Source: Gammaproteobacteria bacterium (lineage in GTDB: Bacteria; Pseudomonadota; Gammaproteobacteria; SZUA-140). From it: a DNA stretch of 64,000 nt. The notes under the pieces are model-generated. The model had not been told where the DNA came from, searched no databases, and saw only the letters and a list, made by a program, of their open reading frames with translations. The stretch spans positions 1 through 64,000 of the forward strand of contig WFVD01000015.1 in NCBI GenBank assembly GCA_015491865.1, in the 5' to 3' direction. Made by a program: the position numbers and the translations under genes. This document shows, in pieces, positions 22,123 through 49,131 of this stretch (the stretch's first letter is position 1; each line of letters begins with the position of its first letter).

Positions 22123-22842
22123 CTAAATGATTCCGCCGTTAATCGAGATCACCTGGCCGGTGATATAGGCCGATTCGTCTGAGCAGAGAAAACCAACCAG
22201 ATGAGCAACCTCTTCGGGTTGTCCCGCCCGTTTCATTGGCACCATCTGTTTGATGGTGTTGTCGTCAAAGCTATCGCCGATGTCGGGTGTTGCAATGATA
22301 CCGGGTGCAACAGCGTTAGCCGTGATGCCGCGGCTGGCAACTTCCAGGGCCAGTGACTTTGTGGCTGAGTTAAGCGCCCCTTTTGCTGCAGAATAATTAA
22401 CCTGCCCGCGATTACCGGTGATTGCAGAAAGGGATGAGATGTTGACGATTCGCCCCCAGCGCGTGCGGATCATCGGCATCATCAGCGGCTGGGTTACATT
22501 AAAGAAACCATTAACTGAAACGTTGATCACATCGTGCCACTGGCGCTGGCTCATCCCGGGGAATACCGCATCATCATGAATGCCGGCATTATTGACAAGG
22601 ATCTGAACAGCGCCCGCTTCCAGAGCGTTTTCCAGTGCAGCTAATGTGGCATCTCTATCAGAGATATCAAAGGCTAAAGCGGTTGATTGACCGCCACTGG
22701 CATTGATCTCATCGCTCAGGGCCTGCGCTTTTTTCAGCCCGGTATTGGCATGAATATAAACATAGCAGCCATCGCCCGCTAACTGTCTGGCGATGGCAGA
22801 GCCGATACCACCACTTCCCCCGGTTACTAACGCTCGCTTCAT
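22123..22842 (-). CDS. 3-oxoacyl-ACP reductase, FabG-like
   Basis: 239-residue short-chain dehydrogenase. The NAD(P)-binding motif TGGSGGIG (8-15), NNAG, and catalytic Ser with Tyr-x3-Lys in GQVNYSAAKGAL are present, and the C-terminus ITGQVISINGGI is typical of FabG. It would reduce 3-ketoacyl-ACP intermediates. It is convergent with the tRNA-Cys gene and is the leftmost gene of the pigment island; aryl-polyene clusters normally include such a ketoreductase. No other fab genes are adjacent, so a role in the polyene pathway is the better reading. Confidence 0.9.
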   Translation of the reverse strand: MKRALVTGGSGGIGSAIARQLAGDGCYVYIHANTGLKKAQALSDEINASGGQSTALAFDISDRDATLAALENALEAGAVQILVNNAGIHDDAVFPGMSQRQWHDVINVSVNGFFNVTQPLMMPMIRTRWGRIVNISSLSAITGNRGQVNYSAAKGALNSATKSLALEVASRGITANAVAPGIIATPDIGDSFDDNTIKQMVPMKRAGQPEEVAHLVGFLCSDESAYITGQVISINGGII

Positions 22843-23319: not shown

Positions 23320-24663
23320 ATGCAAAATGAGGAGAATCACTCCCTTCCTGGAAAGAATATGGCAGATGTTCTTGTGATTGGGGGAGGGCCGGCAGGCTCA
23401 ACTGTCGCCGCACTGTTAGCTGAAAAGGGGCATTGTGTAACATTACTGGAAAAGGCACGACACCCTCGGTTTCATATTGGTGAATCGCTGTTGCCTGCTA
23501 ATCTACCGCTGCTGGAGAAACTGGGTGTTAAAGATGAAATTGATGAGATTGGCATCAAAAAATGGGGTGCTGAATTTGTCTCTCCATGGCATGAAAATAC
23601 CCAGGAGTTTGACTTTAGCGAGGCGTGGGACAAATCCATGCCATTTGCTTATGAAGTCAGACGTTCTGAATTTGATGAAATATTAATTCGTAATGCTGCG
23701 CGCAAAGGCGCATCTGTTATAGAAGGATGTCGTGTCTCGAATGTTGAATTCCTGCCAGATGATGGTGGTGCTATTATTCAGGCTGAACATGATGATGGTA
23801 CAACAGAAGCGTGGCAGGCGCGCTTTGTTGTGGATGCCTCCGGGCGTAATACCTTTCTGGGAAACCGCTTTAAAACAAAAGTGCGTAACCCTAAACATAA
23901 TAGCGCAGCGATTTATGCACACCTTTCTGGTGTTGAGCGAAAGCCTGGAAAGAAAGAAGGTAACATCTCTCTTTTCTGGTTTGATCACGGCTGGTTCTGG
24001 CTTATTCCACTTAAAGGGGATGTAACCAGTATAGGGGCAACAGTATGGCCCTATTATATGAAAACGAGAGGCAGTCGTAGCGTAGAGCAGTTTTTCTTCG
24101 ATACAATTTCACTATGCCCTGAACTGGAAGCACGCCTTAAATCGGCTGAGCTGGTTTCAGGCGTTGAAGCAACCGGCAATTTTTCCTATAGCTGTGGCAA
24201 GAGTTATGGCCCCAATTATATTCTATTGGGGGATGCATACGCCTTTATTGATCCTGTATTTTCGTCAGGGGTTCTTATCGCGATGAATAATGGGTTTGCT
24301 GGTGCAGAGGTCGTTGATGTTCATTTGCGCTCGCCCGAGAAGTCGGCAGCCGCATTTGCCAGATTTGATAAGCTGATGAAGCATGGCCCTCGGGAGTTTT
24401 CCTGGTTTATCTACCGGGTAACCAATCCAACCATGCGGAATATCTTCATGAAACCCAACGATGGAAAGATGAAGGATGCGCTGCTCTCGCTATTGGCGGG
24501 TGATATCTATGGTAAAACACCGATCTGGGGTAGCATATTAGCGTTAAAGGGACTCTATTATTTTCTATCGCTGATCAATATTAAGCGGACAATAACCGCC
24601 TGGCATCGCAGAAAATCGAATATATTAGTGGTTGATGACCAGGATCCCGCGACAAAAAAATGA
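23320..24663 (+). CDS. Flavin-dependent halogenase-like FAD monooxygenase
   Basis: 447 residues. FAD-binding GGGPAGS at 21-27 and a second flavin motif GDAYAFIDPVFSSG at 304-317. Two features of flavin halogenases are present: WFWLIP at 225-230 (the WxWxIP signature) and a Lys pair (80-81) in GIKKWGAEF, where CmlS/PltA-type halogenases place the catalytic lysine after an IGESLLP segment (53-59). The geranylgeranyl reductase-like family is the alternative. An internal ATG at codon 14 with GGAAAG upstream is a possible start. Its TGA overlaps the chorismatase ATG (ATGA), so the two are co-translated. Xanthomonadins are brominated aryl polyenes, so ring or chain halogenation of the product is plausible. 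Confidence 0.75.
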   Translation: MQNEENHSLPGKNMADVLVIGGGPAGSTVAALLAEKGHCVTLLEKARHPRFHIGESLLPANLPLLEKLGVKDEIDEIGIKKWGAEFVSPWHENTQEFDFSEAWDKSMPFAYEVRRSEFDEILIRNAARKGASVIEGCRVSNVEFLPDDGGAIIQAEHDDGTTEAWQARFVVDASGRNTFLGNRFKTKVRNPKHNSAAIYAHLSGVERKPGKKEGNISLFWFDHGWFWLIPLKGDVTSIGATVWPYYMKTRGSRSVEQFFFDTISLCPELEARLKSAELVSGVEATGNFSYSCGKSYGPNYILLGDAYAFIDPVFSSGVLIAMNNGFAGAEVVDVHLRSPEKSAAAFARFDKLMKHGPREFSWFIYRVTNPTMRNIFMKPNDGKMKDALLSLLAGDIYGKTPIWGSILALKGLYYFLSLINIKRTITAWHRRKSNILVVDDQDPATKK

Positions 24664-25709
24664 GCCAGTCAATCCCCTTATCCTTGATCCATCTGCCCTG
24701 TTCTAGCAGTGACCCGCTATTGCCAGAATACAGTGAGCAGACATTAGCATGTGTAACATTCATCCAGAGTGACTGCATAGCTGCCGAACCTACTAGCACT
24801 GTTGTGCAGGTCAACACGCCAATGATTGGTGTGAATGACCAGCATGTTGAGCTCTGGTCTGCCGGGGGGGCGCTCTCAGCAGGCGAGTTGAACGGGGTAA
24901 AGTATCGTTTTAACCATGAACTGCTGTTTGGTTCTATCATCTTATCCGAATCTGCTTTTACCGAAGCACCAGCAGAGAATGGAGGAGAGGCAACACCATT
25001 ACAGCGAGCTACGAAACTGGCCTTCACTTCGATATTTGGTTTGCTTGAGGCGCTGGATTATCCGCACCTCCTTCGAATATGGAACTACTTCCCCGCCATA
25101 AATTCTGAAAGCTATGAGCTGGAGCGCTATCGCCAGTTTAATATCGGCAGGCAACAGGCATTTTCTGCCTGTGGGCGCTCATTAACTAAAGACATACCGG
25201 CCGCCTGCGCCCTGGGAACGATGGGAGGGGAGCTGGTTATCTATTTCATCGCTGTGCATGAAAAGCCGATCGCGATTGAAAACCCGCGGCAGGTCAGTGC
25301 GTATCATTACCCGCCTGAATATGGCCCGAGTGAGCCAACTTTCTCGAGAGCAACGCTTGGTTTTATCGGTGAGCAGGAGGTGCTCTTTATTTCTGGCACA
25401 GCAAGTATTGTTGGTCATAAGAGCATTCATATTGGTGATGTGGTTGCGCAGACGAAGGAGACGCTGCTCAATATTGAGGCTGTTATCAAGGAGGCCAGCC
25501 AGCACTCTTCCCGACAGAGTTACACACTAGAAGAGCTCGTTTATAAGGTCTATTTACGCCGACAGGATGATTTCAAAGCGGTGCATCAGCTTCTTGTAGA
25601 GAAGGTTGGGCCTACAGTACAGGTCTCTTATTTAGAAGCGGATATCTGCCGGCAAGATCTTCTGGTTGAGATTGAGGCGGTCGCAGGTGTTCCGTTGAAA
25701 TCTCTATAA
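24660..25709 (+). CDS. Chorismatase of the XanB2/FkbO/Hyg5 family (hydroxybenzoate synthase)
   Basis: 349 residues. The family hydrolyses chorismate; XanB2 yields 3- and 4-hydroxybenzoate, the former being the starter of xanthomonadin. The C-terminal catalytic region has GEQEVLFISGTASIVGHKSI and HIGDVVAQTKETLLNIEAVI, characteristic of these enzymes. The N-terminal half carries the other subdomain, including IWNYFPAINSESYELERYRQ and FNIGRQQAF. The start codon overlaps the stop of the halogenase-like gene. The presence of this enzyme and absence of any tyrosine ammonia-lyase suggests a hydroxybenzoate-started, xanthomonadin-type polyene rather than a cinnamate-started one. Which isomer is made cannot be told from sequence. 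Confidence 0.85.
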   Translation: MSQSIPLSLIHLPCSSSDPLLPEYSEQTLACVTFIQSDCIAAEPTSTVVQVNTPMIGVNDQHVELWSAGGALSAGELNGVKYRFNHELLFGSIILSESAFTEAPAENGGEATPLQRATKLAFTSIFGLLEALDYPHLLRIWNYFPAINSESYELERYRQFNIGRQQAFSACGRSLTKDIPAACALGTMGGELVIYFIAVHEKPIAIENPRQVSAYHYPPEYGPSEPTFSRATLGFIGEQEVLFISGTASIVGHKSIHIGDVVAQTKETLLNIEAVIKEASQHSSRQSYTLEELVYKVYLRRQDDFKAVHQLLVEKVGPTVQVSYLEADICRQDLLVEIEAVAGVPLKSL

Positions 25710-25773: not shown

Positions 25774-26532
25774 ATGAAGCGACTTTTATACACCTTTTTA
25801 GAGTATTGCGCTCTTTATCTCGGGCTGGGCTTCCTCGGATTACTCTGTCTTTTATGGATGCCCGTTGCAACAATCCTGAACCTGGCATTACCCAGGCGGC
25901 AGGCAGGCATCATAGGTCGTTTTGCCATTATGGCTGGTTTTTACATCTATATCCGCTTTCTTGCACTAATGGGGGCCTGCCGTTTTGATATTAGTGAACT
26001 CGACTCTCTACGTGGAGCGCCAGCCATGATCATCGCACCAAACCACCCCTGTCTGCTTGATGCGGTGATGGTGATATCCCGCTTACCCAATGTGACCTGC
26101 ATAATGAAGGCCTCTTTGATAGACAATATCTTTCTGGGTGCCGGGGCGCGTCTGGCACAATATATTCGAAATGGTTCAACGATCAAGATGGTCCTCGACG
26201 CTGCAAATTCCCTGAAAAGTGGCAACCATCTTCTTATTTTCCCTGAAGGCACGCGCACCACACGCCCCCCTTGTAACCCCTTTATGGGGGGGATTGGCTA
26301 TATTGCACACCGTGCAAAAGTACCTGTACAGGCGGTCTTTATCGAGACTGATTCTGCTTATCTAAGTAAGGGGTGGCCGCTGTTCCGTAAGCCATCGATG
26401 CCGATCACATACCGTATCAGACTAGGAGAACGATTTGAGCCTGAGGGTGATATAAACGCTTTTATTGTGAAATTAGAGCAACACTTTGCTGCAGAGTTAA
26501 GTAGTACGAAGCCAGTGAGTGGCTCTTATTGA
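25774..26532 (+). CDS. PlsC-family acyltransferase
   Basis: 252-residue membrane-associated acyltransferase related to 1-acylglycerol-3-phosphate acyltransferase. The catalytic HX4D is in APNHPCLLDAVMV, and the substrate motif FPEGTRTT follows in the usual place. The N-terminus has a hydrophobic segment (ALYLGLGFLGLLCLLWMPVA). It lies 64 bp after the chorismatase gene, followed by a GT2 gene. In this cluster it may acylate the pigment or attach it to a lipid rather than serve general phospholipid synthesis. Confidence 0.85.
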   Translation: MKRLLYTFLEYCALYLGLGFLGLLCLLWMPVATILNLALPRRQAGIIGRFAIMAGFYIYIRFLALMGACRFDISELDSLRGAPAMIIAPNHPCLLDAVMVISRLPNVTCIMKASLIDNIFLGAGARLAQYIRNGSTIKMVLDAANSLKSGNHLLIFPEGTRTTRPPCNPFMGGIGYIAHRAKVPVQAVFIETDSAYLSKGWPLFRKPSMPITYRIRLGERFEPEGDINAFIVKLEQHFAAELSSTKPVSGSY

Positions 26533-26608: not shown

Positions 26609-27385
26609 ATGGTTTCTCCCTCCAACACTCACCTCGTTCTTATTCCTAGCTACAATCCTGGTCATTGCGTTTATAAAACAGTCTCTCAAGCGCGCCACTA
26701 CTGGAACCCTGTCTGGGTGGTTGTGGATGGTAGTGACGATGGCACGACCGAGGGGTTGCTTGAAATGGCTCAAACAGATAAGGGATTGAAGGTGGTCCCC
26801 CTATCCGAAAACCGGGGGAAAGGTGCTGCGGTGCTACACGGCAGTGAGCTGGCACTGGAAGCTGGCTTTACTCATGTATTAACAATGGACTCTGATGGGC
26901 AGCATCCAGCAGAACTCATCCCAGAATTTATGAAAGTTTCCAGCCGACAGCGTGATGCGATGATTCTCGGCACTCCTGTTTTTGATGCTGATGCGCCAGC
27001 ACTCAGAGTCAGGGGGCGACAAATCTCTAACTGGTGGGCGAATCTGGAGACGCTATGGATGGGAATTGGTGATTCATTATTTGGCTTTCGGGTTTATCCA
27101 CTTCAACCGCTGTGCCAGATTATGCGTGACAGGATCTGGATGCGCCGTTTCGATTTCGACCCTGAAATCGTAGTACGCATGTGCTGGCAAGGCATCAAAC
27201 CCGTTAATTTGGCAGCGCCGGTGAAATATTTAAAGCCAGAAGAGGGGGGCGTTTCTCATTTCAACTATCTACGCGATAATCTTCTGCTGACCGGGATGCA
27301 CAGCCGTCTTTTTCTGGGTTTTTTGCTGCGACTCCCCTCATTACTGCTCAGACACTGGCCTACAACTCACCGCGGTGAGTTGTAG
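26609..27385 (+). CDS. Family 2 glycosyltransferase
   Basis: 258 residues. GT-A fold pattern: LVLIPSYNPGHCVYKTV, VVVDGSDDGT, LSENRGKGAAVLHG and the DxD motif MDSDGQHPAEL. The C-terminus has a hydrophobic stretch. It resembles dolichyl-phosphate-mannose-synthase-type GT2 enzymes that are regular members of aryl-polyene and xanthomonadin clusters. The last codons and the TAG lie inside a 44-bp perfect palindrome (27351-27394). Confidence 0.87.
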   Translation: MVSPSNTHLVLIPSYNPGHCVYKTVSQARHYWNPVWVVVDGSDDGTTEGLLEMAQTDKGLKVVPLSENRGKGAAVLHGSELALEAGFTHVLTMDSDGQHPAELIPEFMKVSSRQRDAMILGTPVFDADAPALRVRGRQISNWWANLETLWMGIGDSLFGFRVYPLQPLCQIMRDRIWMRRFDFDPEIVVRMCWQGIKPVNLAAPVKYLKPEEGGVSHFNYLRDNLLLTGMHSRLFLGFLLRLPSLLLRHWPTTHRGEL

Positions 27386-28200: not shown

Positions 28201-30603
28201 TCACCTTCCTTTCGCGTCTCTATTGAGCAAAGGTCTTGCTAAGTCTGTTGACCGTTCAGCTAATATGGCGGCAAAGAGTAGCGCCAGGATCACGCCGGGG
28301 GCCACAGTCATACCGATGTTCTTAAGAATAGGAACGGCCGAGAAGGCGAGCAGGGTAAAAATGGTAACGGTGGTGGCATTTGCAAACAGCAGTGATGCAA
28401 GGGTCCGGCGGTAACCAGCACCATCGCCCTGGTGAAATCGTTGATCAAAAAATAGTGCGTAGTTGGAGCCGATGGCAACGGTTAATAACAGGCCGATCAG
28501 GTGAAGTATCGTTAAGCGGTAGCCGTTCCACAGCAACCCGGCTATCACGATGATAACAGCTAGCACAAGCGGGAGCAGGAGGCGTATCACCCGGCGTGGG
28601 GACTTTAGGGCAATCAGTAGCAGCGCAACAATTGCAATAAAACCAGCAAGCGAAAGGTAAAGGACTTCACTTAAATAACCAGAGTACATCTGATCCAGCT
28701 CTTTTTTTACATCGATGAAGAGCGCGCTGCTTCGTGACGCCTTCTCCAGCGCAGCCTGGAGCGGCTGGGGATCTATACTTGACATGTGGCCGTTGAAAGT
28801 CACTGCCTGCAGAGGGATAAGCGCACTCCAGCGGTTCTCCTGCTCAACAATCAGGCTCTCGACGGCGAGCGCTATCGGTGTTCCTGCAAGATCAGATAAC
28901 TGGAGTGGTGGGGCGTGACGCGCGCGTTGCGCATCATCGATAAAACCTGTCAGGCGCTCACTGCTGAGCGGGAGATCTGCAGTTGCGTCCTGCAGGCGTC
29001 TGGTTAGTTCATCTCGATCAGGGATCGCGGCAAGCCGTGCTCTTTGAGTGGCGAGACTCGGTAGATAGTGGCTCGGGCTGTTGTAACCAGCGATAACCCC
29101 AGCTTCAACTAACGGCTCAAGTTGAGCGCTCACTTTTTCTGCGCCAGCAATGGCAGCCTCAATACTGTCGCCAGAGACAACAATGATATAGCGGGGGTTG
29201 GGAGCGCCAAGGTCACTGCGTAAAAGGGTATCGAGCGCGCGATCTGCGTCAGAAACAGGGCTAAGGGCGGCAAGGTCAGTGTTCCAGATATTGTCTCGGT
29301 GGATATAGATAATGGTACAGGCCACTAGTAGTAGCAGTGCTGTTAAATAACGCAGCGGCACCGCATAGTACGAGACTCTGATAAGGACCCCACCGAAGCG
29401 GGTGACATCGCGTACATGAAAGTGACCGGGCAGTAGAACTGGCAGGACAAAACGTGTGACGAGAGCGGCAGCAATTAAACCGGCACTAGAATATAAGCCG
29501 AGTTGAGCAAGACCAGGAAAGCCGGAGAAAAGCAGGACAGAAAAACCGACGATGGAGGTCAATACGCCGAGCCGTATAGTGGGCCAGAATGAGTTAAGCC
29601 AGCCTTGGTTGTGAGCTTCCTCTCTATTGTATTTTGATTGCAGAAAAAGGTAGATCGAATAGTCGATCGCCTCTCCGATCAGGGTGATCCCAAAACCAAG
29701 CGTTACCCCGTGCACCATCCCAAAGCCGAGACTGACTGCTGCAATACCGACGACGATACCGGTGAGCACCGGAATGGTACCAAGCAATACGGCAGTGAAT
29801 GAGCGGTAAAGTAGCAGCAATAAGGTGATGATAAGGACGCTACTCACAATCGACAGACGTTGCACCTCTTGCTTGATCGTCTCGCGTGAGGTCACTGAAA
29901 AGAGACCCTGCCCGCTCATCAGCAGGCGGGCAGAAACAGCTTCTGCTTTAGTTATCTGGTCAAATATCGTTTGGATAACCGTCATGGCATGTTGCTGTCC
30001 ATCAATATCAGATCCCTCCGCCTGGGTCTGTAGCAGCAGGATTGCGCGCTCACCCTGTGGTGAGACCCATACCCCGTCGTACATTTGAGGGCCAGTGTCA
30101 TGATTGAAACTGTTAAGCAGTCGCACTGTTTCACCGGTAGGATCGCGTGTCAGGAGCGGTTTAACGAGTAGCCCGGCAGGTGATGCAAGGAGTGCGATGC
30201 TTTCGCTGATGGCATCGTGTAGACCCGCGCGGGTGAAGCGCTCAGCATCCACTGCAGGACTTAAAAGATAGCGATGGGTGTAAATAAATTTCCGTTTCTC
30301 CTCATCATCAACAGCCTCCCCGTTATTGACCAGGGTAAAGGCCTGCTGCAGGCGAAGCTGTCGTGACATCGCTCTGGAGATCGATACGAGCGTCTCTGTG
30401 TCAGCACCTTCGATGCCGACCAGGATGAGCCGCGAGGCGGCACCGCTTTTTAGTTGATCGATAAAAACTTTCTGATTTTTAGTGGGTTCACTGGGCATGA
30501 AGGCCGTTAAGTCAGCACTAAACTGGGTACGCTCTATGATAAAGGCGCAGGTGAGCAGAAGAAGCAGCCACAGCGTAATGGATACTGCCCGGGCTGACCT
30601 CAT
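28201..30603 (-). CDS. MMPL/RND-type exporter
   Basis: 800-residue membrane transporter with two repeats, each an extracytoplasmic domain after one transmembrane helix and then a bundle of helices. Examples are GIVVGIAAVSLGFGMVHGVT and GFGITLIGEAIDYSIYLFLQ (a typical MMPL TM4 acidic pair region), then TVAIGSNYALFFDQRF in the second half. Aryl-polyene clusters regularly carry an MMPL exporter with a LolA-like partner. Its ATG overlaps the TGA of the LolA-like gene (ATGA). Confidence 0.92.
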   Translation of the reverse strand: MRSARAVSITLWLLLLLTCAFIIERTQFSADLTAFMPSEPTKNQKVFIDQLKSGAASRLILVGIEGADTETLVSISRAMSRQLRLQQAFTLVNNGEAVDDEEKRKFIYTHRYLLSPAVDAERFTRAGLHDAISESIALLASPAGLLVKPLLTRDPTGETVRLLNSFNHDTGPQMYDGVWVSPQGERAILLLQTQAEGSDIDGQQHAMTVIQTIFDQITKAEAVSARLLMSGQGLFSVTSRETIKQEVQRLSIVSSVLIITLLLLLYRSFTAVLLGTIPVLTGIVVGIAAVSLGFGMVHGVTLGFGITLIGEAIDYSIYLFLQSKYNREEAHNQGWLNSFWPTIRLGVLTSIVGFSVLLFSGFPGLAQLGLYSSAGLIAAALVTRFVLPVLLPGHFHVRDVTRFGGVLIRVSYYAVPLRYLTALLLLVACTIIYIHRDNIWNTDLAALSPVSDADRALDTLLRSDLGAPNPRYIIVVSGDSIEAAIAGAEKVSAQLEPLVEAGVIAGYNSPSHYLPSLATQRARLAAIPDRDELTRRLQDATADLPLSSERLTGFIDDAQRARHAPPLQLSDLAGTPIALAVESLIVEQENRWSALIPLQAVTFNGHMSSIDPQPLQAALEKASRSSALFIDVKKELDQMYSGYLSEVLYLSLAGFIAIVALLLIALKSPRRVIRLLLPLVLAVIIVIAGLLWNGYRLTILHLIGLLLTVAIGSNYALFFDQRFHQGDGAGYRRTLASLLFANATTVTIFTLLAFSAVPILKNIGMTVAPGVILALLFAAILAERSTDLARPLLNRDAKGR

Positions 30604-31202
30604 GGTGTGGCCACTTCCTCAATCTTCATGATGGAGTAGTCCCCGTCTGCCTGGTGAATCTCGATGGTATTGATTGTCTCCTGCTTGCCGAGGATCACAA
30701 TGTGGTTGAGAATGTCAGCCATGCGTTTGTCGGTTGGTGAGAGTGTTAATTGCCAATGTTCCGCGTTACCGGCAAGGGCCAGTTGGTATGAGCGTTCCAG
30801 TGCTGAAATATCTCCAGCAAGCGTACCGCGGATGCTCTCGATAAATATGGCAATTCTGGGGTGCCGTTTTAGTTTCAGTGTGTGCCGTTTTTTGCCTCGC
30901 TGGATTGTAATGACGCCATCATCTAGTACGAAGCTTTCAGGCGTCGGTTTGAGCGTTCTTTTCTCCAGATAACTGGGTGCGGTGTAGTGAAGTTCGCCAG
31001 ATGATTCGAGCGGTGTATCGAGCATGGCGATAAATTTTTTTTCGGTGAAAGTTGTAACCCCGCCGCTATTTTTGGCTAATGCCGCCATTAACGAGCTGAT
31101 CCCCCACGCTGGTGGTTGCGCTATCGATGGTGCAGCCATCATGGTCATTAGCAGCAAAAGGGAGCAGAATCTGGTTATCACTAATTGAAGGGAGAATGGC
31201 AT
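30600..31202 (-). CDS. LolA-like periplasmic lipid carrier
   Basis: About 200 residues from ATG 31202; the frame extends three codons further to a TTG at 31211. The Sec signal peptide ends near PSIAQPP. The body has the LolA-like pattern (FTEKKFIAMLDTPLESSGEL, YLEKRTLKPTPESFVLDDGV, ITIQRGKKRHTLKLKRHP). LolA-like proteins bind hydrophobic acyl chains in a half-barrel, so with the coupled MMPL exporter it could shuttle the pigment to the outer membrane. Confidence 0.85.
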   Translation of the reverse strand: MPFSLQLVITRFCSLLLLMTMMAAPSIAQPPAWGISSLMAALAKNSGGVTTFTEKKFIAMLDTPLESSGELHYTAPSYLEKRTLKPTPESFVLDDGVITIQRGKKRHTLKLKRHPRIAIFIESIRGTLAGDISALERSYQLALAGNAEHWQLTLSPTDKRMADILNHIVILGKQETINTIEIHQADGDYSIMKIEEVATP

Positions 31203-31229
31203 ATGGGGCAACTCATGTTGTCGAGCTTA

Positions 31230-32171
31230 CTATGATTCGGGTTGGCGGGCTGCTTGCCAGAAGTCGAAGAAATTAAACCAGTTATAGGGGGCTTTGTGGC
31301 AATATTTTTCTAATAGCGATGCGTATTGCTCGGTCGCTAATTTAATTGCCACATCACTATTATCCGCAGAAACATCGGAGAAATCGGCTAGTGGTTCAAA
31401 ATGAATACTGTAGCGGTTTTTGCCTAAATAGAGTGCAGTCATAAAGATCACTGGGCGGCGCATCAGGGCGGCCATACGAAATGGTCCGGTCGGAAAGGTT
31501 GCCAGCGCACCCATGAATGGAACAGCTAATGTGGTATCGTCACCAAAAGTTCGATCTGCGAGAATACTTAGCACTGCACCCTCATCGAGCTTTTCGTGGA
31601 CCTTTAACATGGTGTCAACATGCCCGAGTGGAATGATATCCTGCTGAATCTCAGGGTTGATTGCAGCAAGCATTGTATTTATTTTTCGCGCATTCTCTTC
31701 AAACATGACCATGATGACCTGAAGATCAGGGTGGCGCCGTCCCATCGAGTGTGCGGCTTCAAAACTACCCAGGTGGCCACCGAGAAGAAAGGCACCGCGC
31801 CCCTGAGAGAGGGTGCTCTGTATGAGCTGCTCGTTATATGTGATGATCTCAAAGAGATCATAGCGATCATTGATGAGATAAACCCGGTCATGGATGGTGG
31901 CAGCAAAGGTGAAGAGGTGCCTGTAAAGGTCGCGCAGGGTCGCTTTTCGTTTTAGGGCCCGTCCCAGGTAGTTGCGTGAAGCGTGTCGTGATGAACGGGA
32001 AAAAATCAGAAAATAGGTGGTGATTAAATGCAGCACCACGCGGCTGGCGTTTCGCCCCAGGTGGAGTGAAATCCAGCTCATGACGCGCAACATAAACGTA
32101 CTGCCGCGTTCTGGTTTCTCCGCCCAGTTTGTCTCTTGCTGCTGTTCAGATGCGCTACGATTTTTCTGCAT
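31230..32171 (-). CDS. LpxL/HtrB-family acyltransferase
   Basis: 313-residue inner-membrane acyltransferase. The catalytic HX4E is in LLGGHLGSFEAAHSM, and LSILADRTFGDDTTLAVPFM then GALATFPTGPFRMAAL matches the later conserved region. It overlaps the end of the AMP-ligase gene by 17 bp. Lipid-A-type acyltransferases are standard in aryl-polyene clusters and are one candidate for transferring the polyenoyl chain from ACP onto an acceptor. Confidence 0.88.
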   Translation of the reverse strand: MQKNRSASEQQQETNWAEKPERGSTFMLRVMSWISLHLGRNASRVVLHLITTYFLIFSRSSRHASRNYLGRALKRKATLRDLYRHLFTFAATIHDRVYLINDRYDLFEIITYNEQLIQSTLSQGRGAFLLGGHLGSFEAAHSMGRRHPDLQVIMVMFEENARKINTMLAAINPEIQQDIIPLGHVDTMLKVHEKLDEGAVLSILADRTFGDDTTLAVPFMGALATFPTGPFRMAALMRRPVIFMTALYLGKNRYSIHFEPLADFSDVSADNSDVAIKLATEQYASLLEKYCHKAPYNWFNFFDFWQAARQPES

Positions 32172-33486
32172 TCGCCTCTACCAGTGCTATTAATGCTGCC
32201 TGTGGGAGTTTTCCTGTCTTACTACGAGGAAGTGCATCGATGAAAATAATCGGTCGAGGTAGAAATACAGGGTCAATTCGGTCGCGCAGAGCGCGCATTA
32301 ATGAGCGGCTATCCAGGGTGGGTGCAACAACAAAAAGGGTGAGACGTGATATCTGCTTCTCAGTTTTATTGTTCGGCATAAAGAAAGCGGCATCCTCAAC
32401 CCCTTCGACCGCGATGGCCTGATGGTTGAGGTAGGAGAGAGAGCTGCGTTTTCCTGCGATGTTGATCATATCTTCCGATCGCCCATGGAGCAGAAAGTGG
32501 TTATGCCGGGTGATCTCTAACCTGTCTGAGATGGTGATCGGCTGGTCGATATGCCCACCTGATGCTGTGACTTTATCCCCCTCCATCGTGAGTTGAATGC
32601 CATCAAAGAGCTGCCACTCTGCGCTCTCGGCCGGGCGTCGAGTGGCGAGCTGGCCCGTTTCGGTGCAGCCATAGATCTCCAGCAGGTGAGACTGCAAACG
32701 GCCCTCCGCCTCCACTGCCAGTTCCTTTGAGAGTGGTGCTGTTGCCGATACGATCAGGTTGACCGCTGCAACCTCTATTTCTGAGGCGAGTAATGAGTGC
32801 AAGTGGTAAGGGGTTGTGACCAGCAGGCGAGGCTGGGGCGTCGCTGTGATGGTGTTATGAATATCGACCGGGTAGAAGGGACGACCCGCATCGAAGGCGT
32901 TGCCGCTCTGTAATGCGACCAGTACAGTCGATTCGAAGCCGTACATATGTTGAGGCGGTACAGTGCCAATAATAGTATGGTTGGCACCATCCTGTAACCC
33001 CAGCCGTTTCCCTTCGATACGCACATTTTTTACCAGCGATCCCCACCGTTTTGGGTGGGGCACGGGAGAGCCTGTTGAGCCTGAGGTGAACACCCACGCA
33101 GCTAGTTGTGCCGCTTTAACCTGCGGGACCTTAGTTATCTCTTGCTGATGGGGAGGGGTATCTGCCTGAAGGCGCTTGTTGATATCATCGTCATCCAGGG
33201 TGATATAATTGGGTGCAAGGCGCTGTAATGAGCGCAATGTTTCAGTGGTGAGGGAAGATGGCATCAGGCTGATGCAGTCAGCGATCAGCGTTGCTGCAAA
33301 ACCGAGTGCGAAATGGTAACGATCCTGACAGGTGTTCAGGATATACCTTTTTTCAGGCAGAGTTGAGGCGACTTTGTGCGCACCGTGAAGAAACTGCCTC
33401 GCCGTGATTACGCTGCCGTTGCGGTATGCGACTGCGGCGTCGAGGCTGCTATGGGTAATCAGAGGAAAGTGAGTGGTGGTGCTCAT
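32155..33486 (-). CDS. AMP-dependent ligase, aryl-ACP starter activation
   Basis: 443-residue adenylate-forming enzyme, shorter than typical acyl-CoA synthetases (about 550). AMP-binding motif FTSGSTGSPVPHPKRW, acid motif LEIYGCTETGQLATR and the hinge LHGRSEDMINIAGKRSS with C-terminal lysine SKTGKLP are present, so both catalytic lobes are there. In aryl-polyene pathways such ligases activate the hydroxybenzoate starter and load ACP. Its ATG overlaps a TGA in the upstream frame. It is followed immediately by the LpxL-like acyltransferase. Confidence 0.85.
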   Translation of the reverse strand: MSTTTHFPLITHSSLDAAVAYRNGSVITARQFLHGAHKVASTLPEKRYILNTCQDRYHFALGFAATLIADCISLMPSSLTTETLRSLQRLAPNYITLDDDDINKRLQADTPPHQQEITKVPQVKAAQLAAWVFTSGSTGSPVPHPKRWGSLVKNVRIEGKRLGLQDGANHTIIGTVPPQHMYGFESTVLVALQSGNAFDAGRPFYPVDIHNTITATPQPRLLVTTPYHLHSLLASEIEVAAVNLIVSATAPLSKELAVEAEGRLQSHLLEIYGCTETGQLATRRPAESAEWQLFDGIQLTMEGDKVTASGGHIDQPITISDRLEITRHNHFLLHGRSEDMINIAGKRSSLSYLNHQAIAVEGVEDAAFFMPNNKTEKQISRLTLFVVAPTLDSRSLMRALRDRIDPVFLPRPIIFIDALPRSKTGKLPQAALIALVEANAEKS

Positions 33487-33620: not shown

Positions 33621-33908
33621 CTATTTTGTTCGATGCTCGGCAACATGTGCAGTGAGGCTGCGTAGCGAACCAAAGATGCTAATGTTGTCATTGCTGTCAG
33701 AGCGCAGCTGAATCCCGTACTGTTTTGATAGCACCAGTGATATTTCGAGGATATCGATGGAGTCCAGCCCCAGTCCTTCACCAAACAGGGGGGCGTCAGG
33801 CTCAATGTCAGTTGGGGGGATCTCCAGGTTGACTGCTGTTACGATCAGTTCTGCGATTTCTATCAGAAGGGTGTCATCAGTTGCGGGTGTCTGGTTTTGA
33901 TTTGGCAT
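33621..33908 (-). CDS. Acyl carrier protein (first of three)
   Basis: 95 residues. The phosphopantetheine site is in GEGLGLDSIDILEISLVLSK (the DSx motif), with acidic N-terminal helix and the VSKQYGI-type third helix. Located upstream of the AMP-ligase and acyltransferases, it is the likely acceptor of the hydroxybenzoate starter. Confidence 0.93.
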   Translation of the reverse strand: MPNQNQTPATDDTLLIEIAELIVTAVNLEIPPTDIEPDAPLFGEGLGLDSIDILEISLVLSKQYGIQLRSDSNDNISIFGSLRSLTAHVAEHRTK

Positions 33909-34198: not shown

Positions 34199-35704
34199 TC
34201 ATGGCACCGGTTTTTTTTCATCGTTCAGGTGGGCGTTACCCGGTTTGACTAGCAGGCCACCGCGGCCGCTGGCGATACTACTGATTTTTGCTTTTAAAAA
34301 GCCGAGCCCAAAGCGTAGTAGCCGCAGCAGGTGGTTGGGGTAGTGAATGGTCAATTTGGTGTAGTACCAGCCGACGCGAGGGCGTTTGTAGAAGGCGGTA
34401 AGAATGCTCTGATATTGTCTGTCTAGCTCTTCAACTGATATACCGTCGGGTGACCAGACAAAATTCATCCCATTCATCTTTTCCCAGTGATCCTCTCGGA
34501 TATTGGTGCCGTAGATATCACGATAGATTGGGGAGCCGGGGTAGGGGGTGAATTTAGTCAGGTTCATAATGGTCATCGGGATGCGGCGAATAAACGCCTT
34601 TGTTTGTGCGATCGTTTCGCTATCCTCACCAGGAAAACCGAGCATAAAAAGCCCCTTGGTACGGATACCGGCAGCAGCAGTCCACTTGATGGCCTGTTCA
34701 GATTTTTCCACTTCAGCGGCCTTATCCATCTTTTTCAGAAGCGCATTGGAGCCTGTTTCAAGTCCAAAACTGATCTCCCAGCAGCCGGCCTTTTTCATCA
34801 ATGCCAATACATCAGGTTTGACAGTATCGACGCGCGCTGTGCAGGTCCAGGTCATCTTTAAATTGCTGGCTAGTAACATGTTGCAAAGCTCGGTAGTGCG
34901 GACTTTACTCGCTAGAAAGAGATCGTCAACAAACATGATGTGGCGTATACCATAGTTGTCATGCAGGTGCTTCATCATTTCAAAAACTTTCTGTGGCGAG
35001 TAGTGGCGTACTTTGGAACCAAAAGTTGAAGTGTCGCAAAATTTGCAAAAAAATGGGCAGCCACGTGATGCCGCGATCGTCGCCACCGGCCCGCGTGGAA
35101 AGTCATAAATAGCGGGTTTATAAGCATGAGGAAAGCCTGGTAGCAGATCCCAGGCGGGGAAGGGGAGTTCATCTAACACCTTATTCGCAGGCCATCCCGA
35201 TGTCTTGCGGGTAAAGATACCGTCGCGGAAAATAATGCCCGCTACCTCTGAGAGTGGGTTCTGGTTATCGAGTGCATCGAGTAGTTCGATGAGAATTTTT
35301 TCGCCCTCCCCGACAACGGCAACATCGAACTCCTTGAAGCGTGTGATCGTCTCTTCTCCCATGGAGGAGATGTGGGGGCCACCGACGATAATGGTGGTGT
35401 GGGGGAGTGCTGCTTTAATCTTTCGTGCAATGGCAGCGGCAGACCAGATACCGACAGTAAATAGTGTGATACCAACATAAGCTGGCCTGGCTGCGATCAC
35501 CTGATCAGCTACCTGCTCGACAGATAAATTGGCGATGTCGCTCTCTATAATGGAGGGTGTGTAGCCACGCAGGCGCACCTCTGCTGCCAGATGAAGCAGT
35601 CCTAAAGAGGGGGAGTTGTTAGTGATATGTTTGACAAACTCATAGCCACGCGCAATCCGCTCGTAAGGCGGATTAATAAAGATGATGCTTTTCTGTGCCA
35701 TCAT
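34199..35704 (-). CDS. B12-binding-type radical SAM protein
   Basis: 501 residues. The N-terminal 180 residues have a cobalamin-binding-like fold (FINPPYERIARGYEFV..., IIVGGPHISSMGEETI) but lack the lower-ligand DxHxxG motif. The radical SAM cluster is CPFFCKFC (Cys216, Cys220, Cys223), followed by HIMFVDDLFLASKVRTTELC and GCWEISFGLETGSNALLKKM. This architecture is shared by BchE-like oxidative cyclases and class B radical SAM methylases. It is transcribed between the ACP and KS genes. I do not recall it as a standard aryl-polyene enzyme, so it is a candidate tailoring enzyme. The reaction cannot be predicted. Confidence 0.85.
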   Translation of the reverse strand: MMAQKSIIFINPPYERIARGYEFVKHITNNSPSLGLLHLAAEVRLRGYTPSIIESDIANLSVEQVADQVIAARPAYVGITLFTVGIWSAAAIARKIKAALPHTTIIVGGPHISSMGEETITRFKEFDVAVVGEGEKILIELLDALDNQNPLSEVAGIIFRDGIFTRKTSGWPANKVLDELPFPAWDLLPGFPHAYKPAIYDFPRGPVATIAASRGCPFFCKFCDTSTFGSKVRHYSPQKVFEMMKHLHDNYGIRHIMFVDDLFLASKVRTTELCNMLLASNLKMTWTCTARVDTVKPDVLALMKKAGCWEISFGLETGSNALLKKMDKAAEVEKSEQAIKWTAAAGIRTKGLFMLGFPGEDSETIAQTKAFIRRIPMTIMNLTKFTPYPGSPIYRDIYGTNIREDHWEKMNGMNFVWSPDGISVEELDRQYQSILTAFYKRPRVGWYYTKLTIHYPNHLLRLLRFGLGFLKAKISSIASGRGGLLVKPGNAHLNDEKKPVP

Positions 35705-37267: not shown

Positions 37268-37375
37268 TAGTAGCGCTTATATAGAGAAAGATGTTTTAAT
37301 TACCTTATATTAATGAGGGTGGGGCAGTAGTGTGCACTAAACTGCGTTGGTTTAATGAACTAGATTGTGTTGTGT
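37037..37375. promoter_or_regulatory. Divergent promoter region between KS and darA genes
   Basis: About 340 bp between a leftward KS gene and rightward darA. The right half is AT-rich (TTATATAGAG at about 37277-37286; TTATATTAATGAGG nearer darA) and should hold the dar promoter. No single box set is convincing. A doubtful small ORF overlaps it. Confidence 0.4.
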
Positions 37376-38326
37376 ATGAAAAAAGTACTTGTGGTCTACT
37401 ATTCTCAAACAGGCCAGATAACTTCAGTCGTGGATTCTATATGCGAGGCGATACAGTCCGAAGGGATAAGCGTAAGTCGAGAGTGTTTGCGTACTGAGCA
37501 GGCGTACCCCTTTCCCTGGCCCTTTTTTCGTTTTCTGGATGTTTTTCCCGAATCGGTCTATCTGGATCCCCCTGCGCTGATGCCGCTTTCAGTCTCCCCC
37601 GATGATGACTATGACCTGGTTGTTCTTGCCTACCAGGTCTGGTATTTATCACCATCACTACCGATGACCGCCTTTATTAAATCCGCAGCGGGACAAAAAA
37701 TTCTGGAAGGTCGCCCTGTCGTTACCGTTATCGCATGTCGCAATATGTGGCTCATGGCCCAGGAAAAAATGAAAAAGATGCTCAACGATGCAGGGGCCAG
37801 GTTACTGGATAACGTGGCGCTGGTTGATAGCCAGTCTGCACTTGTTACATTTTTGACCACCCCTCGCTGGCTGCTAACAGGTAATAAAGGAACCCAGGGG
37901 GGAGTATTACCACCGGCAGGTGTGGCCGAGAGTGATGTTGCCAGCGCTGCTCGTTTTGGTAGCGCGCTGGCTTCAGCCCTGGAGAATGATTTAGAGAAAA
38001 TAGGAGAACCTTTACTGACAGGGCTGGAGGCAGTAAAGGTAGACACCCGTTTGATTGCCAGTGAAAAAATAGGCCATCGAAGTTTTCTGATCTGGGGGAA
38101 ATTATTACGCGCAATAGGTCCTCAGGGTGCGCCCCTTCGGCAGTTTGTGCTGGCCATTTATGCTGTATTCCTCGTGTGTATGATTATCACGGTGGTCCCT
38201 ATTACAATGGCGCTTAAATTTTTACTTAAACCACTGCTTAAAAAAGGGCTAGAGCGAGAGCGCGAATATTTTGAAGCCCCATCAGGCTCATCAAATAATC
38301 GCATGAAGGATTTTTTGCATGAGTAA
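37376..38326 (+). CDS. darA: Dialkylresorcinol condensing enzyme DarA
   Basis: 316 residues from ATG 37376; a GTG nine bases upstream is less likely. The N-terminus MKKVLVVYYSQTGQITSVVD is a flavodoxin-type FMN site. The middle VTVIACRNMWLMAQEKMKKM continues the fold, and the C-terminus has a membrane anchor (VLAIYAVFLVCMIITVVPIT). DarA, encoded with DarB, converts the condensed cyclohexanedione into the aromatic resorcinol. Its last 8 bp overlap darB. This pair is the key evidence for a dialkylresorcinol half. Confidence 0.88.
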   Translation: MKKVLVVYYSQTGQITSVVDSICEAIQSEGISVSRECLRTEQAYPFPWPFFRFLDVFPESVYLDPPALMPLSVSPDDDYDLVVLAYQVWYLSPSLPMTAFIKSAAGQKILEGRPVVTVIACRNMWLMAQEKMKKMLNDAGARLLDNVALVDSQSALVTFLTTPRWLLTGNKGTQGGVLPPAGVAESDVASAARFGSALASALENDLEKIGEPLLTGLEAVKVDTRLIASEKIGHRSFLIWGKLLRAIGPQGAPLRQFVLAIYAVFLVCMIITVVPITMALKFLLKPLLKKGLEREREYFEAPSGSSNNRMKDFLHE

Positions 38327-39470
38327 TAAAGTGTTTATTACCAGAATTGCTGCATATTTACCTAATGAAGCGGTTAGCAATGAGGAAATAGAAGATGTGC
38401 TGGGGGTAGTCAATAACAAAAAATCTCGAGCGCTTAAGGTTGTATTAAGAAATAATGGGATCAAGTCGCGCCATTACGTGCTTGATAAACAGACAGGTCA
38501 ACCGAAATTTAATAACGCGCAGTTAACCGCCATGGCCGTTAAGGGGCTAAACGACAATGACTTCTCTATTAATGATATTGATTGTTTAAGCTGCGGAACG
38601 ACGATTGCAGATCAGCTGGTGCCGGGGCATGCGGTGATGGTTCATGGTGAGCTTGGTATCCCGCCCTGTGAAACTGTGACAACGATCGGTGTCTGCTCGT
38701 CCAGCATGTCATCACTGAAATATGCCTATATGAATGTCATGAGCGGTTGTAGTTCGAATGCTGTTGCGACGGGGTCTGAGGTGGCGTCTCTCACACTACG
38801 TGCCAATGCTTATGCCAGTTTAAAAGATGAGCGACCTGCGGAGGATATCAGACGCAGACCTGAGCTGGCATTTGAGAAGGACTTTTTACGCTGGATGTTG
38901 TCAGATGGAGCGGGTGCCATATTGTTAGAGTCACACCCCCGCGATGGCCAGCTGTCGCTACAAATCGACTGGCTTGAAGTGATCTCTTTTGCAAATGAAC
39001 TGGAGCCCTGCATGTATGCGGGTGCGATGAAAGATGCCTCCGGTCAACTGGTTGGGTGGCGTGAATTTCCACTGCAGGAGATGGTAGATAAAGATATCCT
39101 GGCGCTCAAGCAGGATGTTAAATTACTTAATCAACATATTGTACCGCTGACACTTGAGCGCGGTTTAACGATGGTCAGAGAAAAGCATGCCCTCGCTGTT
39201 GATGACATTGATTACTTTCTGCCCCATATATCCTCTGAGTATTTTCGAGAAAAGCTGGCTCAGGGGCTAGAGAATATCGGTTTTCCACTTCCCCAGGAGA
39301 AATGGTTCACAAACCTCGCCACCAAAGGCAACACCGGCGCGGCATCCATCTATATTATGCTGGAAGAGCTATTTCATAGTGGTCGGTTAAAAAGAGGGGA
39401 GCGGATTTTGTGTTTTGTTCCAGAGAGCGGGCGGTTCATCAGCTCATTTATGCTGCTAACGGTTGTATAG
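38319..39470 (+). CDS. darB: Dialkylresorcinol ketosynthase DarB (KAS III-like)
   Basis: 383-residue thiolase-fold enzyme. The active Cys126 is in TTIGVCSSSMSSL, with His in YFLPHISSEYFREK and Asn in NLATKGNTGAAS, as in KAS III/StlD. DarB condenses two beta-ketoacyl or acyl chains into the ring precursor for DarA. It overlaps darA and is 2 bp before the next gene, giving a dar operon. The substrates cannot be predicted. Confidence 0.9.
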   Translation: MSNKVFITRIAAYLPNEAVSNEEIEDVLGVVNNKKSRALKVVLRNNGIKSRHYVLDKQTGQPKFNNAQLTAMAVKGLNDNDFSINDIDCLSCGTTIADQLVPGHAVMVHGELGIPPCETVTTIGVCSSSMSSLKYAYMNVMSGCSSNAVATGSEVASLTLRANAYASLKDERPAEDIRRRPELAFEKDFLRWMLSDGAGAILLESHPRDGQLSLQIDWLEVISFANELEPCMYAGAMKDASGQLVGWREFPLQEMVDKDILALKQDVKLLNQHIVPLTLERGLTMVREKHALAVDDIDYFLPHISSEYFREKLAQGLENIGFPLPQEKWFTNLATKGNTGAASIYIMLEELFHSGRLKRGERILCFVPESGRFISSFMLLTVV

Positions 39471-39924: not shown

Positions 39925-40950
39925 ATGATTACCGCTGAATCTTCTATTATCGTGAACAGTGACTATGTACACCGCCATGCAGCGCACTGTGAAAGTGGTG
40001 CCGTATCCTCTCTGTTACGACATTACGGGTTGGAGATGAGTGAAGCGATGACCTTTGGTTTATCCTCTGCCCTGATCTTTGCACATTTTCCTTTTGTAAA
40101 GGTTGAAGGCTTTCCACTGACCGCATACCGGGCAATGCCTGGTGCAATCGTAAAATCTACTGCCAGATCGATGGGGGTTCGTATGCGCCGGGAGCGTTTT
40201 CGTGATCCGCAGGCTGGTACAGCGCGGCTGAATGAATTACTGGCGCAGGGACGGGTGGTGGGTATGCAGGCCTCGGTATACTGGCTTCCCTATTTTCCAC
40301 CCAATATGCGTTTTCATTTTAATGCTCATAATATGGTGGCTTACGGAAGAGAGGGCGATGACTACCTGATTAGCGATCCTATTGCAGAACATCCTGTCAC
40401 CTGCCCTGCCGCAGACTTGCAGAAAGCGCGTTTTGTAAAGGGGATGTTTGCACCCAGGGGATTGCTTTACTACCCGCTTGATACACCGAGTGAGGTGGAT
40501 CTCAGCAAGGCAGTTGCGCGCGCGATTAAAAAGACAACATTTGTCATGCTCAATACTCCGCTGCCATTTGTTGGCGTGAGGGGGATACGCTATCTTGCGA
40601 AACGGATTAGAGAGCTAGGTCTCAAATCTAGTGATGCCCGCTATGCGCTACTTTTTATTGCGACGATTGTGAGGATGCAGGAGGAGATTGGCACTGGTGG
40701 CGGAGGGTTCAGGTTTATTTACGCCTCATTTCTTCAGGAGGCGGCAGAAAAGATTGGTGAACCGCGTCTGCAAGAGGCGTCAGAGTTGATGACCTCTTCT
40801 GGTGATGCGTGGAGAGAATTTGCACTGCTGGGGGCCCGTTTCTGTAAAAAGAAGCCTGATGTCACGCTGGATCAGCTAGCTGAAGCGCTGTTAGTTTGCG
40901 CCGATTTCGAAGCAAATGCATTCCGCCTGCTAAGAGCGATCCGCCTGTAA
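39925..40950 (+). CDS. BtrH-like acyltransferase (BtrH_N plus DUF4872)
   Basis: 341 residues. The N-terminal half resembles the BtrH_N papain-like fold, with Cys22 in HAAHCESGAVSSLLRHYG, His135 in FNAHNMVAYG and Asp151 in YLISDPIAEHP as a plausible catalytic triad. The C-terminal half matches DUF4872-type helical extension. BtrH transfers an acyl group from an ACP to an aminoglycoside in butirosin synthesis. As the last gene of the dar operon it is a good candidate for joining the polyenoyl-ACP to the resorcinol hydroxyl. Confidence 0.8.
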   Translation: MITAESSIIVNSDYVHRHAAHCESGAVSSLLRHYGLEMSEAMTFGLSSALIFAHFPFVKVEGFPLTAYRAMPGAIVKSTARSMGVRMRRERFRDPQAGTARLNELLAQGRVVGMQASVYWLPYFPPNMRFHFNAHNMVAYGREGDDYLISDPIAEHPVTCPAADLQKARFVKGMFAPRGLLYYPLDTPSEVDLSKAVARAIKKTTFVMLNTPLPFVGVRGIRYLAKRIRELGLKSSDARYALLFIATIVRMQEEIGTGGGGFRFIYASFLQEAAEKIGEPRLQEASELMTSSGDAWREFALLGARFCKKKPDVTLDQLAEALLVCADFEANAFRLLRAIRL

Positions 40951-40966
40951 CCCATACGATCCCTTC

Positions 40967-41869
40967 TTATATCACTGAGAGAGAGACCGCCGCATAACGG
41001 CGGCCGCGTTTATCTCGATTGATATGTATTAAAGAGCGGCCCCGTTTCTCGCCAATAAATGATGCCAAGGTATAGGCACAGTGCGTTGTGTGAAACGGCA
41101 CATGATTTGCGCACTTATAAATCCCGCAAACATTCAGATCAGCTGCGAAGTTTACAGCGGTCTCATCGCTAATGTTATCTCCGCCAGCCAGGTAGGTGGG
41201 GGAGGGGAGTGCTGCCTGTTGCAGAAAAGATAAGAGTCCCGATTCATCAGCAAAGAATTTAACCCACTCGCAGCGGGCTAATGCATGCTGTTGATCTCCT
41301 GCGCCAATATGCAGCCAGCTACTACCCTCTGCTAACGGTGCATCAGCAGCCAGATTCATCCGTTGACGATGTTGTGACAGGGGGTAGGCGCACTCTTCCA
41401 CACCCCCTACCAGCGCGCAAGGGACGGCCCGGCCGCTGTTGGCTATATTGAACATGGCTAGATCTAATGCAGTTTCAAAAGGGAAAGAGTGGTGAGCGAT
41501 GGTCAGGTTTGAACTGTGTAACTTCAGGCTTTGAGCAAGATAAAATCCCGCCATGTTGTTAGAGATGTTGAGAAACGCCAGCGGCATTGGCGCTTCCTGC
41601 TCTTTTAATAGCAGGCGGGTGATATCGGCAACGCCGGCAACATTTCCCTGCTCTGTCGCCAGGTAGAGATCACAGTCAGCTTCTATTTCGAGTTGTGACT
41701 GGTCAAGGCACGATTTTGCCCCAATCAGGGCGAGCTCAATAAAGTGGTTGATGCGCCGGAAGCGTTTTCCCCAGGCGGCCTGAAGCTGGGGCTTCAGGTC
41801 GAGCGCAGGTTCATTTGCCTGCCATGCATGTGCGGCAGCACCATAGATGTAAGTGAGTCTATCGTTCAT
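40967..41869 (-). CDS. Ketosynthase-like protein lacking catalytic Cys
   Basis: 300 residues, about 100 shorter than KS enzymes. KS-like segments are visible (LYLATEQGNVAGVADITRLL, LALIGAKSCLDQ, CGIYKCANHVPFHTTHCAYT), but where the catalytic Cys should be the sequence reads LTIAHHSFPFETALDLAMFN, with no Cys. It overlaps the end of the preceding KS gene as ATGA. It could be a chain-length-factor-like partner, like the ApeC-type protein at 49132. Confidence 0.75.
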   Translation of the reverse strand: MNDRLTYIYGAAAHAWQANEPALDLKPQLQAAWGKRFRRINHFIELALIGAKSCLDQSQLEIEADCDLYLATEQGNVAGVADITRLLLKEQEAPMPLAFLNISNNMAGFYLAQSLKLHSSNLTIAHHSFPFETALDLAMFNIANSGRAVPCALVGGVEECAYPLSQHRQRMNLAADAPLAEGSSWLHIGAGDQQHALARCEWVKFFADESGLLSFLQQAALPSPTYLAGGDNISDETAVNFAADLNVCGIYKCANHVPFHTTHCAYTLASFIGEKRGRSLIHINRDKRGRRYAAVSLSVI

Positions 41870-43035: not shown

Positions 43036-43037
43036 TA

Positions 43038-43304
43038 CTAGCGTGACTTTATCTCATTTGCCAGGCTATTGACCGATGTAAATGCGCGTCTTGCATCGTT
43101 ACTGCCTGTGATCTTCAGGTTATATTCTTTATAGATTGCCATCGATAGCTGCAGAATATCTAATGAATCGAGTTCGATGACTGACGCTTCGCCAAATAGC
43201 GGCTCATCATCGCTGATACTTCCGGGGTCTATCCCTTTGTCAGACTCGATGGCGATTATCTCTTTTAGCCGCTGTTTAAGCTTTTCATCTTCTGCCCCCA
43301 TCAT
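43038..43304 (-). CDS. Acyl carrier protein (second)
   Basis: 88 residues. Phosphopantetheine site SVIELDSLDILQLSMAIYKE. GAGAGG precedes the start. Its TAG lies 2 bp before the KS start, so it is expected to deliver chains to that KS pair. Confidence 0.92.
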   Translation of the reverse strand: MMGAEDEKLKQRLKEIIAIESDKGIDPGSISDDEPLFGEASVIELDSLDILQLSMAIYKEYNLKITGSNDARRAFTSVNSLANEIKSR

Positions 43305-43328
43305 TTTGAAACCCTCTCCTTTCAGGGA

Positions 43329-45489: not shown

Positions 45490-45709
45490 TAGAACTCCGA
45501 TGAGGCTATGTGGCAACGTATTTCAGGGCACCTCCTGTCGGTAGTAGTATATTGCATTACTGCCCTCTAATGCGATGGATCTGCGATTATTGCACGCTAA
45601 TATTATGGCCAATGGGGTGTGATTCCAATGAGGCAATCGTTATCATGTCTCATTTGCTAATGAACCTCCGTTGAGGGGGGGCAATAGATAACGAGAAGAT
45701 AACCTTTGC

Positions 45710-49124: not shown

Positions 49125-49131
49125 GTACGGT

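Follow-up and report, generated by a model that had tools for sequence, protein, structure and literature searches.

Gene organization of the pigment cluster

A stretch of 64,000 nt from a gammaproteobacterial genome (2.54 Mb, 31 contigs) was analyzed and is referred to as the window. The pigment gene cluster spans approximately 22–51 kb of it. An intact open reading frame at 23320–24663 (forward strand, ATG start) encodes a FAD enzyme of 447 amino acid residues, P0001, which family, PDB, tree and fold matches place among the ArcA/XanB1-type enzymes with a flavin-dependent halogenase fold. The next gene, at 24660–25709 (forward strand, ATG start), encodes P0002, a chorismatase of 349 residues of the FkbO/Hyg5/XanB2 family (ArcB/XanB2-like; PF21168, with Cys330 and Glu337). 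The two genes lie in different frames and overlap by four bases, ATGA (24660–24663, forward strand), which hold the TGA stop codon of the first and the ATG start codon of the second; a preliminary description of this DNA had already noted the overlap.

Upstream of this pair lies a gene for a FabG/ArcH-like ketoreductase of the polyene pathway (22123–22842, reverse strand), whose product also scored against FlxB of flexirubin. Downstream on the forward strand are genes for an ArcD-like acyltransferase of the PlsC type (25774–26532) and an ArcE-like family 2 glycosyltransferase (26609–27385). The reverse strand then carries an ArcP-like MMPL/RND exporter (28201–30603), an ArcQ-like carrier resembling LolA (30600–31211), an ArcR-like acyltransferase of the LpxL type (31230–32171), an ArcT/Xcc4015-like AMP-ligase that probably serves the aryl starter (32155–33486) and an ArcV-like acyl carrier protein (ACP; 33621–33908). 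An ArcK-like polyene ketosynthase (47937–49124) and an ArcJ-like, chain-length-factor-like ketosynthase N-domain protein (49078–49932) follow on the forward strand.

A dialkylresorcinol (DAR) module occupies 37367–39470 (forward strand), with a flavodoxin-like open reading frame in the DarA position and a StlD/DarB-family ketosynthase at 38319–39470. Genes for a BtrH-like protein, a further pair of ketosynthases and an ABC transporter were found at 39925–45516 and resemble the dar genes of Azoarcus. They lie within the polyene cluster, so that a single locus of about 29 kb holds both polyene and resorcinol genes, whereas in Azoarcus they are found in separate loci of the same genome.

The cluster also contains a gene for a B12-binding radical SAM protein (34199–35704, reverse strand). 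Close relatives (E<1e-100) were present in seven genomes of the class, six of which also had the polyene chain-length factor, and a 78% identical copy is situated directly after the ArcA gene in genome G179 (L033). No ArcM methyltransferase was seen in the window cluster, and the radical SAM protein may be a cluster-specific methylase that replaces it.

The chorismatase and the overlapping junction

P0002 scored 120.2 bits against the FkbO/Hyg5 chorismatase family PF21168 (cut-off 27); with 229.7 bits against TIGR04444 it stayed below the cut-off of 325, and its class is assigned from the Pfam match and the residues only. Alignment with 5ag3 located the active-site glutamate at E337 and a Hyg5-type cysteine, C330, seven residues earlier. 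Because this matches the Cys-318/Glu-325 spacing of the Hyg5-type chorismatase (PMC7170507), P0002 is likely to be of the 3-hydroxybenzoate-forming type, and 3-hydroxybenzoate is also what arcB of Azoarcus forms (PMC3949708).

When the start codon nearest to the FAD stop was chosen, which favors overlap, a 1- or 4-base overlap was possible in 24 of the 33 loci with the FAD enzyme–chorismatase order, several of them near relatives, and a gap was present in the other 9. No strong Shine-Dalgarno sequence is visible directly before 24660, which is compatible with translational coupling and is no proof of it. The ATGA overlap is a feature of a shared transcript and not evidence for the starter as substrate.

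Family assignment of the FAD enzyme

Against Trp_halogenase (PF04820), P0001 scored 109.7 bits (Pfam cut-off 21). Its best NCBIfam match was the CmlS equivalog NF033113, but at 188.3 bits against a curated cut-off of 900, orthology with CmlS was dropped. The best sequence relatives in the PDB were ChlB4 (195 bits), FasV (8zop), Mpy16 (5buk), PltA and CndH. Relatives with 60–65% identity came mostly from Rhodocyclales, and a 95% identical enzyme is encoded on a contig of Chromatiales bacterium HyVt-459. The strong family matches of both genes, the 60–65% identical relatives and the recurring tight junction argue that the observed gene pair is not due to chance. From the Rhodocyclales relatives and the gene order, the ArcA/XanB1 identity of P0001 is well supported at the sequence level, and so is its membership in the halogenase fold.

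Conserved motifs and the candidate catalytic lysine

The motifs of P0001 were located at residues 21–26 (GGGPAG), 53–59 (IGESLLP), 80–81 (K80-K81), 225–230 (WFWLIP) and 309–317 (FIDPVFSSG). Both halogenase motifs, WxWxIP and F..P..S.G, are thus kept, and the flavin-binding motif GxGxxG is present and nearly invariant in an alignment of 31 clade members with identities down to 44%. Ten residues were invariant in this alignment, namely K81, W225, W227, I229, P230, F309, D311, P312, S315 and G317, whereas position 80 was occupied by E, R, H, L, V or K. The preliminary description had pointed to WFWLIP and to a lysine pair behind IGESLLP. The motifs and K81 are indeed there, but a functional pair was rejected, since K80 varies and only K81 (codon 23560–23562, forward strand) is invariant across the clade.

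K81 aligns with the conserved lysine of PltA, ChlB4 and CndH, that is, with the second lysine of PKKFGA/PKKYGA in PltA/ChlB4 and with the lysine of PIKRGG in CndH. The residues at these aligned positions, K73 in PltA and K76 in CndH, are what we take to be the catalytic lysines, and by its alignment position K81 would be the catalytic lysine of P0001. Roles for the conserved lysine and for both halogenase motifs have been described (PMC7336383, PMC8407142, PMC10377541), and the brominating enzyme CHEESY1 has similarly spaced motifs (PMC12645471). The same halogenase motifs were, however, found in the Cytophaga hutchinsonii flavoprotein 3nix and in the FAD enzymes of other aryl-polyene clusters, and the motif test therefore cannot decide on halogenation.

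Phylogeny and predicted fold

An earlier tree that included GGR, OTH_L080 and Bmp2 (5bul) had very long branches and an unclear deep order, and these rows were removed from the maximum-likelihood tree. There, a branch supported at 99/95 had on one side 32 sequences, all from aryl-polyene loci and with P0001 among them. This ArcA side was separate from PltA/ChlB4/Mpy16, from CndH/FasV and from 3nix with the other aryl-polyene FAD enzymes, which formed a clade of their own (100/100).

An AlphaFold2 model of the FAD enzyme, built from 31 window and locus sequences, was confident, with a pLDDT of 90.1. The ten nearest solved structures by VIA-align had Z scores of 37–47; nine of them were halogenases, and the other, which ranked first, was the flavoprotein 3nix. 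Hydroxylases of the p-hydroxybenzoate type scored 37 or below, and the geranylgeranyl reductase (GGR) 3oz2 came at Foldseek rank 49. The fold of the model is nearer to halogenases than to hydroxylases or reductases.

PltA, Mpy16, ChlB4, CndH and FasV (5dbj, 5buk, 7fco, 3e1t and 8zop) share with P0001 the fold (VIA Z 41–47), GxGxxG, the lysine position, WxWxIP and F..P..S.G. They differ from it by lying in separate clades with about 28–32% identity, and they are filed as halogenases, whereas P0001 is a putative one. The 3nix-type enzymes likewise share fold and motifs, and their bacterial relatives occur in the same kind of cluster, but they are only about 30% identical to P0001 and are placed beside an exporter, not a chorismatase. 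A DNA search of E. coli genomes for an aryl-polyene FAD gene gave no match, and neither an oxidoreductase nor a flavoprotein is mentioned in the publication on the pigment cluster of E. coli.

These comparisons also bear on whether P0001 could be a reductase akin to geranylgeranyl reductases, in which the resemblance to halogenase motifs is accidental. P0001 does match TIGR02032 (GG-red-SF, geranylgeranyl reductase family), but its 106.2 bits are below the cut-off of 158.8, GGR 3oz2 gave 43 bits in the PDB comparison in which ChlB4 stood first, and the GGR-type row L090 has neither WxWxIP nor the lysine nor F..P..S.G. Together with the low fold rank, this led us to reject the reductase reading, which we regard as extremely improbable. 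The preliminary description, which had seen features of CmlS/PltA-type halogenases in the enzyme, agrees with its place in the PltA/CndH-type fold family and with the published signatures it carries; non-halogenating reductases, which it had named as the relatives that would speak against this, were not the closest relatives by family, tree or fold.

Relation to the arc and xan gene pairs

The pair of FAD enzyme and chorismatase genes is already known as arcA-arcB in Azoarcus and xanB1-xanB2 in Xanthomonas, and has been annotated since at least 2013–2014. The published order in Azoarcus sp. BH72 is arcA, annotated as ‘halogenase’, the chorismatase gene arcB, arcC, arcD, arcE, arcG, arcH, arcJ and arcK (PMC3949708). 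The Rhodocyclales loci match it: the FAD enzyme and the chorismatase come first and, after some 0.8 kb, are followed by acyltransferase, glycosyltransferase, antiporter, ketoreductase, chain-length factor and ketosynthase. As in the window, the halogenase-annotated gene of BH72 adjoins a XanB2-type chorismatase gene (azo3921-azo3920). The acyltransferase, glycosyltransferase, antiporter, ketoreductase, chain-length factor and ketosynthase are features common to both clusters.

In Xanthomonas, XanB1 is annotated as ‘putative reductase/halogenase’ beside XanB2 (pigB), between an ACP and an AMP-ligase (PMC3838355), and there, too, a FAD enzyme stands beside a chorismatase. Two complete genomes (5.0 and 4.8 Mb) have this Xanthomonas-like order, with AMP-ligase, chorismatase, an ArcA-clade enzyme (44–45% identity) and ACP. 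Because the Rhodocyclales loci match the arc order and the Xanthomonas-like loci the XanB2-XanB1 order, the pair in the window is an instance of this known gene pair.

Co-occurrence with polyene and starter genes

The distribution of the FAD enzyme was surveyed in 369 genomes of the class, where it was called at E<1e-100, the next matches lying only near 1e-58. It was present in 34 genomes (∼9%), and the polyene chain-length factor accompanied it in all 34 (Fisher p 5e-30, with related genomes not being independent). A chorismatase (E 1e-15) was detected in 26 of the 34; some of the eight genomes without a detectable one are drafts, and a few of these absences may be assembly gaps. In Azospirillum ramasamyi, the FAD enzyme gene comes directly before the acyltransferase gene, and a stretch of 37 kb there carries no annotated chorismatase. 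Conversely, chorismatase and chain-length factor occurred without the FAD enzyme in 20 genomes, one of them of the same genus as the window.

It follows from these counts that the FAD enzyme tracks polyene assembly and is an optional tailoring enzyme, not a part of starter synthesis. The preliminary description had taken coupling to starter synthesis to suggest halogenation of the aryl ring or of an early ACP-bound intermediate. That the coupling marks the starter as the substrate is not supported, since the enzyme is kept without the chorismatase in some genomes and missing from others with chorismatase and polyene genes. Coupling as proof of substrate was rejected on the same counts.

In the genome of the same genus (G071, L081:3218-19769), an aryl-polyene cluster with a chorismatase but no ArcA has another gene order and much lower identity, which suggests that within this genus the cluster was replaced or acquired separately.

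Proposed reaction of the FAD enzyme

The reading that we favor, with a probability of about 0.58, is that P0001 belongs, as the ArcA/XanB1 enzyme, to an aryl-polyene cluster of the arcuflavin/xanthomonadin type and works as a two-component flavin-dependent halogenase. Family and structure matches led by halogenases, the clade at 99/95, the invariant motifs, the alignment of K81 with the lysines of PltA, ChlB4 and CndH, the arc-like gene order of the Rhodocyclales loci and the co-occurrence with the chain-length factor all point to it. A further argument comes from the pigments. Xanthomonadins are brominated, whereas the pigment of Lysobacter, which lacks a halogenase gene in its cluster, is not (PMC3691225). 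Likewise, in G165, which belongs to one family with the Xanthomonas-like genomes, a locus had the chorismatase and the ACP without the FAD enzyme.

In such a reaction, HOX would form at the flavin from O2, halide and the FADH2 that a separate reductase provides, and a wall made by WxWxIP would hold the substrate off the flavin. K81 would receive the HOX and transfer Br (or Cl) as an electrophile to an electron-rich ring, the 3-hydroxyphenyl group of a starter or growing polyene bound to the ACP. The neighboring chorismatase would supply the ring by converting chorismate to 3-hydroxybenzoate, and the shared transcript would keep both early genes co-expressed, with the FAD enzyme as optional tailoring that the starter does not require. 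The host is probably marine, its near-identical relative HyVt-459 being taken as a hydrothermal vent organism, and bromide would be plentiful there.

Three observations argue against halogenation, namely the motifs shared with the 3nix-type enzymes, the pigment of the arcA strain and a second halogenase-like gene. LB medium contains chloride and little bromide. Arcuflavin of Azoarcus BH72, whose arcA adjoins arcB and which was grown in LB, has the formula C41H52O4, read by its authors as that of a pigment without bromine (PMC3949708). Given the chloride in LB, chlorination at least was unseen in this pigment, and a bromide-specific enzyme would still be possible.

The second gene was found in genome G384, which has the Xanthomonas-like order with a FAD enzyme adjacent to the chorismatase. 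At L112:10283-11905 (reverse strand), near a glycosyltransferase and ketosynthases, it encodes another FAD enzyme of 541 residues with WFWLIP and FLDPFYSPG and 26% similarity. Its clade had seven members in the 369 class genomes, six of them with the chain-length factor but only one together with ArcA. The Xanthomonas map also shows a second such gene, listed separately as ‘H = halogenase’ (PMC3838355), whereas in the window genome the second clade matched nothing except the ArcA-type enzyme itself. The second-clade enzyme could be the real brominase, and the ArcA-type enzyme, the second-clade enzyme or both could brominate.

These data raise the alternative that P0001 has the halogenase fold but catalyzes another conserved flavin reaction, such as the hydroxylation or oxidation of an aryl intermediate held on the ACP, and that in Xanthomonas the second halogenase-like enzyme carries out the bromination. 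The ambiguous annotation of XanB1 as reductase or halogenase (PMC3838355) would fit it. It is hard to reconcile, however, with the strict conservation of K81, WxWxIP and F..P..S.G, as WxWxIP is thought to prevent monooxygenation (PMC8407142), or with the arcuflavin formula, which leaves no oxygen for a hydroxylase beyond the starter's own (PMC3949708). We consider this alternative doubtful, and slightly more so the view that the ArcA/XanB1 clade is not a halogenase here but performs some other flavin step on the aryl polyene, xanthomonadin being brominated by the second, mostly non-overlapping clade.

A different substrate would be the dialkylresorcinol part of a hybrid pigment, in place of the aryl polyene. 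Electrophilic halogenation proceeds readily on resorcinol rings, and the window cluster contains the DAR module with DarB. Xanthomonadins, by contrast, lack a DAR (PMC3949708), yet the Xanthomonas-like loci keep the FAD enzyme, and in Azospirillum (L050) its gene is part of a polyene cluster for which the 37 kb shown carry no annotated DAR gene. We judge halogenation of the resorcinol part to be very unlikely.

Literature searches found no biochemical assay of any ArcA/XanB1 enzyme, and annotation only for the function of xanB1. For ArcA-type enzymes, halogenation in vivo seems somewhat likelier than its absence. The comparison exposes a contradiction, as a widespread clade carries all halogenase signatures while one host in the literature has a non-brominated pigment. 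Its resolution would tell whether the three-motif rule of halogenase mining predicts activity, as well as which enzyme brominates xanthomonadin. The window contributes a host that is probably marine, where one would expect a reaction dependent on bromide to be visible.

In genome G477 (L114:9277-11980, reverse strand), two tandem ArcA-clade enzymes, 43% and 48% identical to P0001, are encoded beside the chorismatase, possibly corresponding to two halogenation positions.
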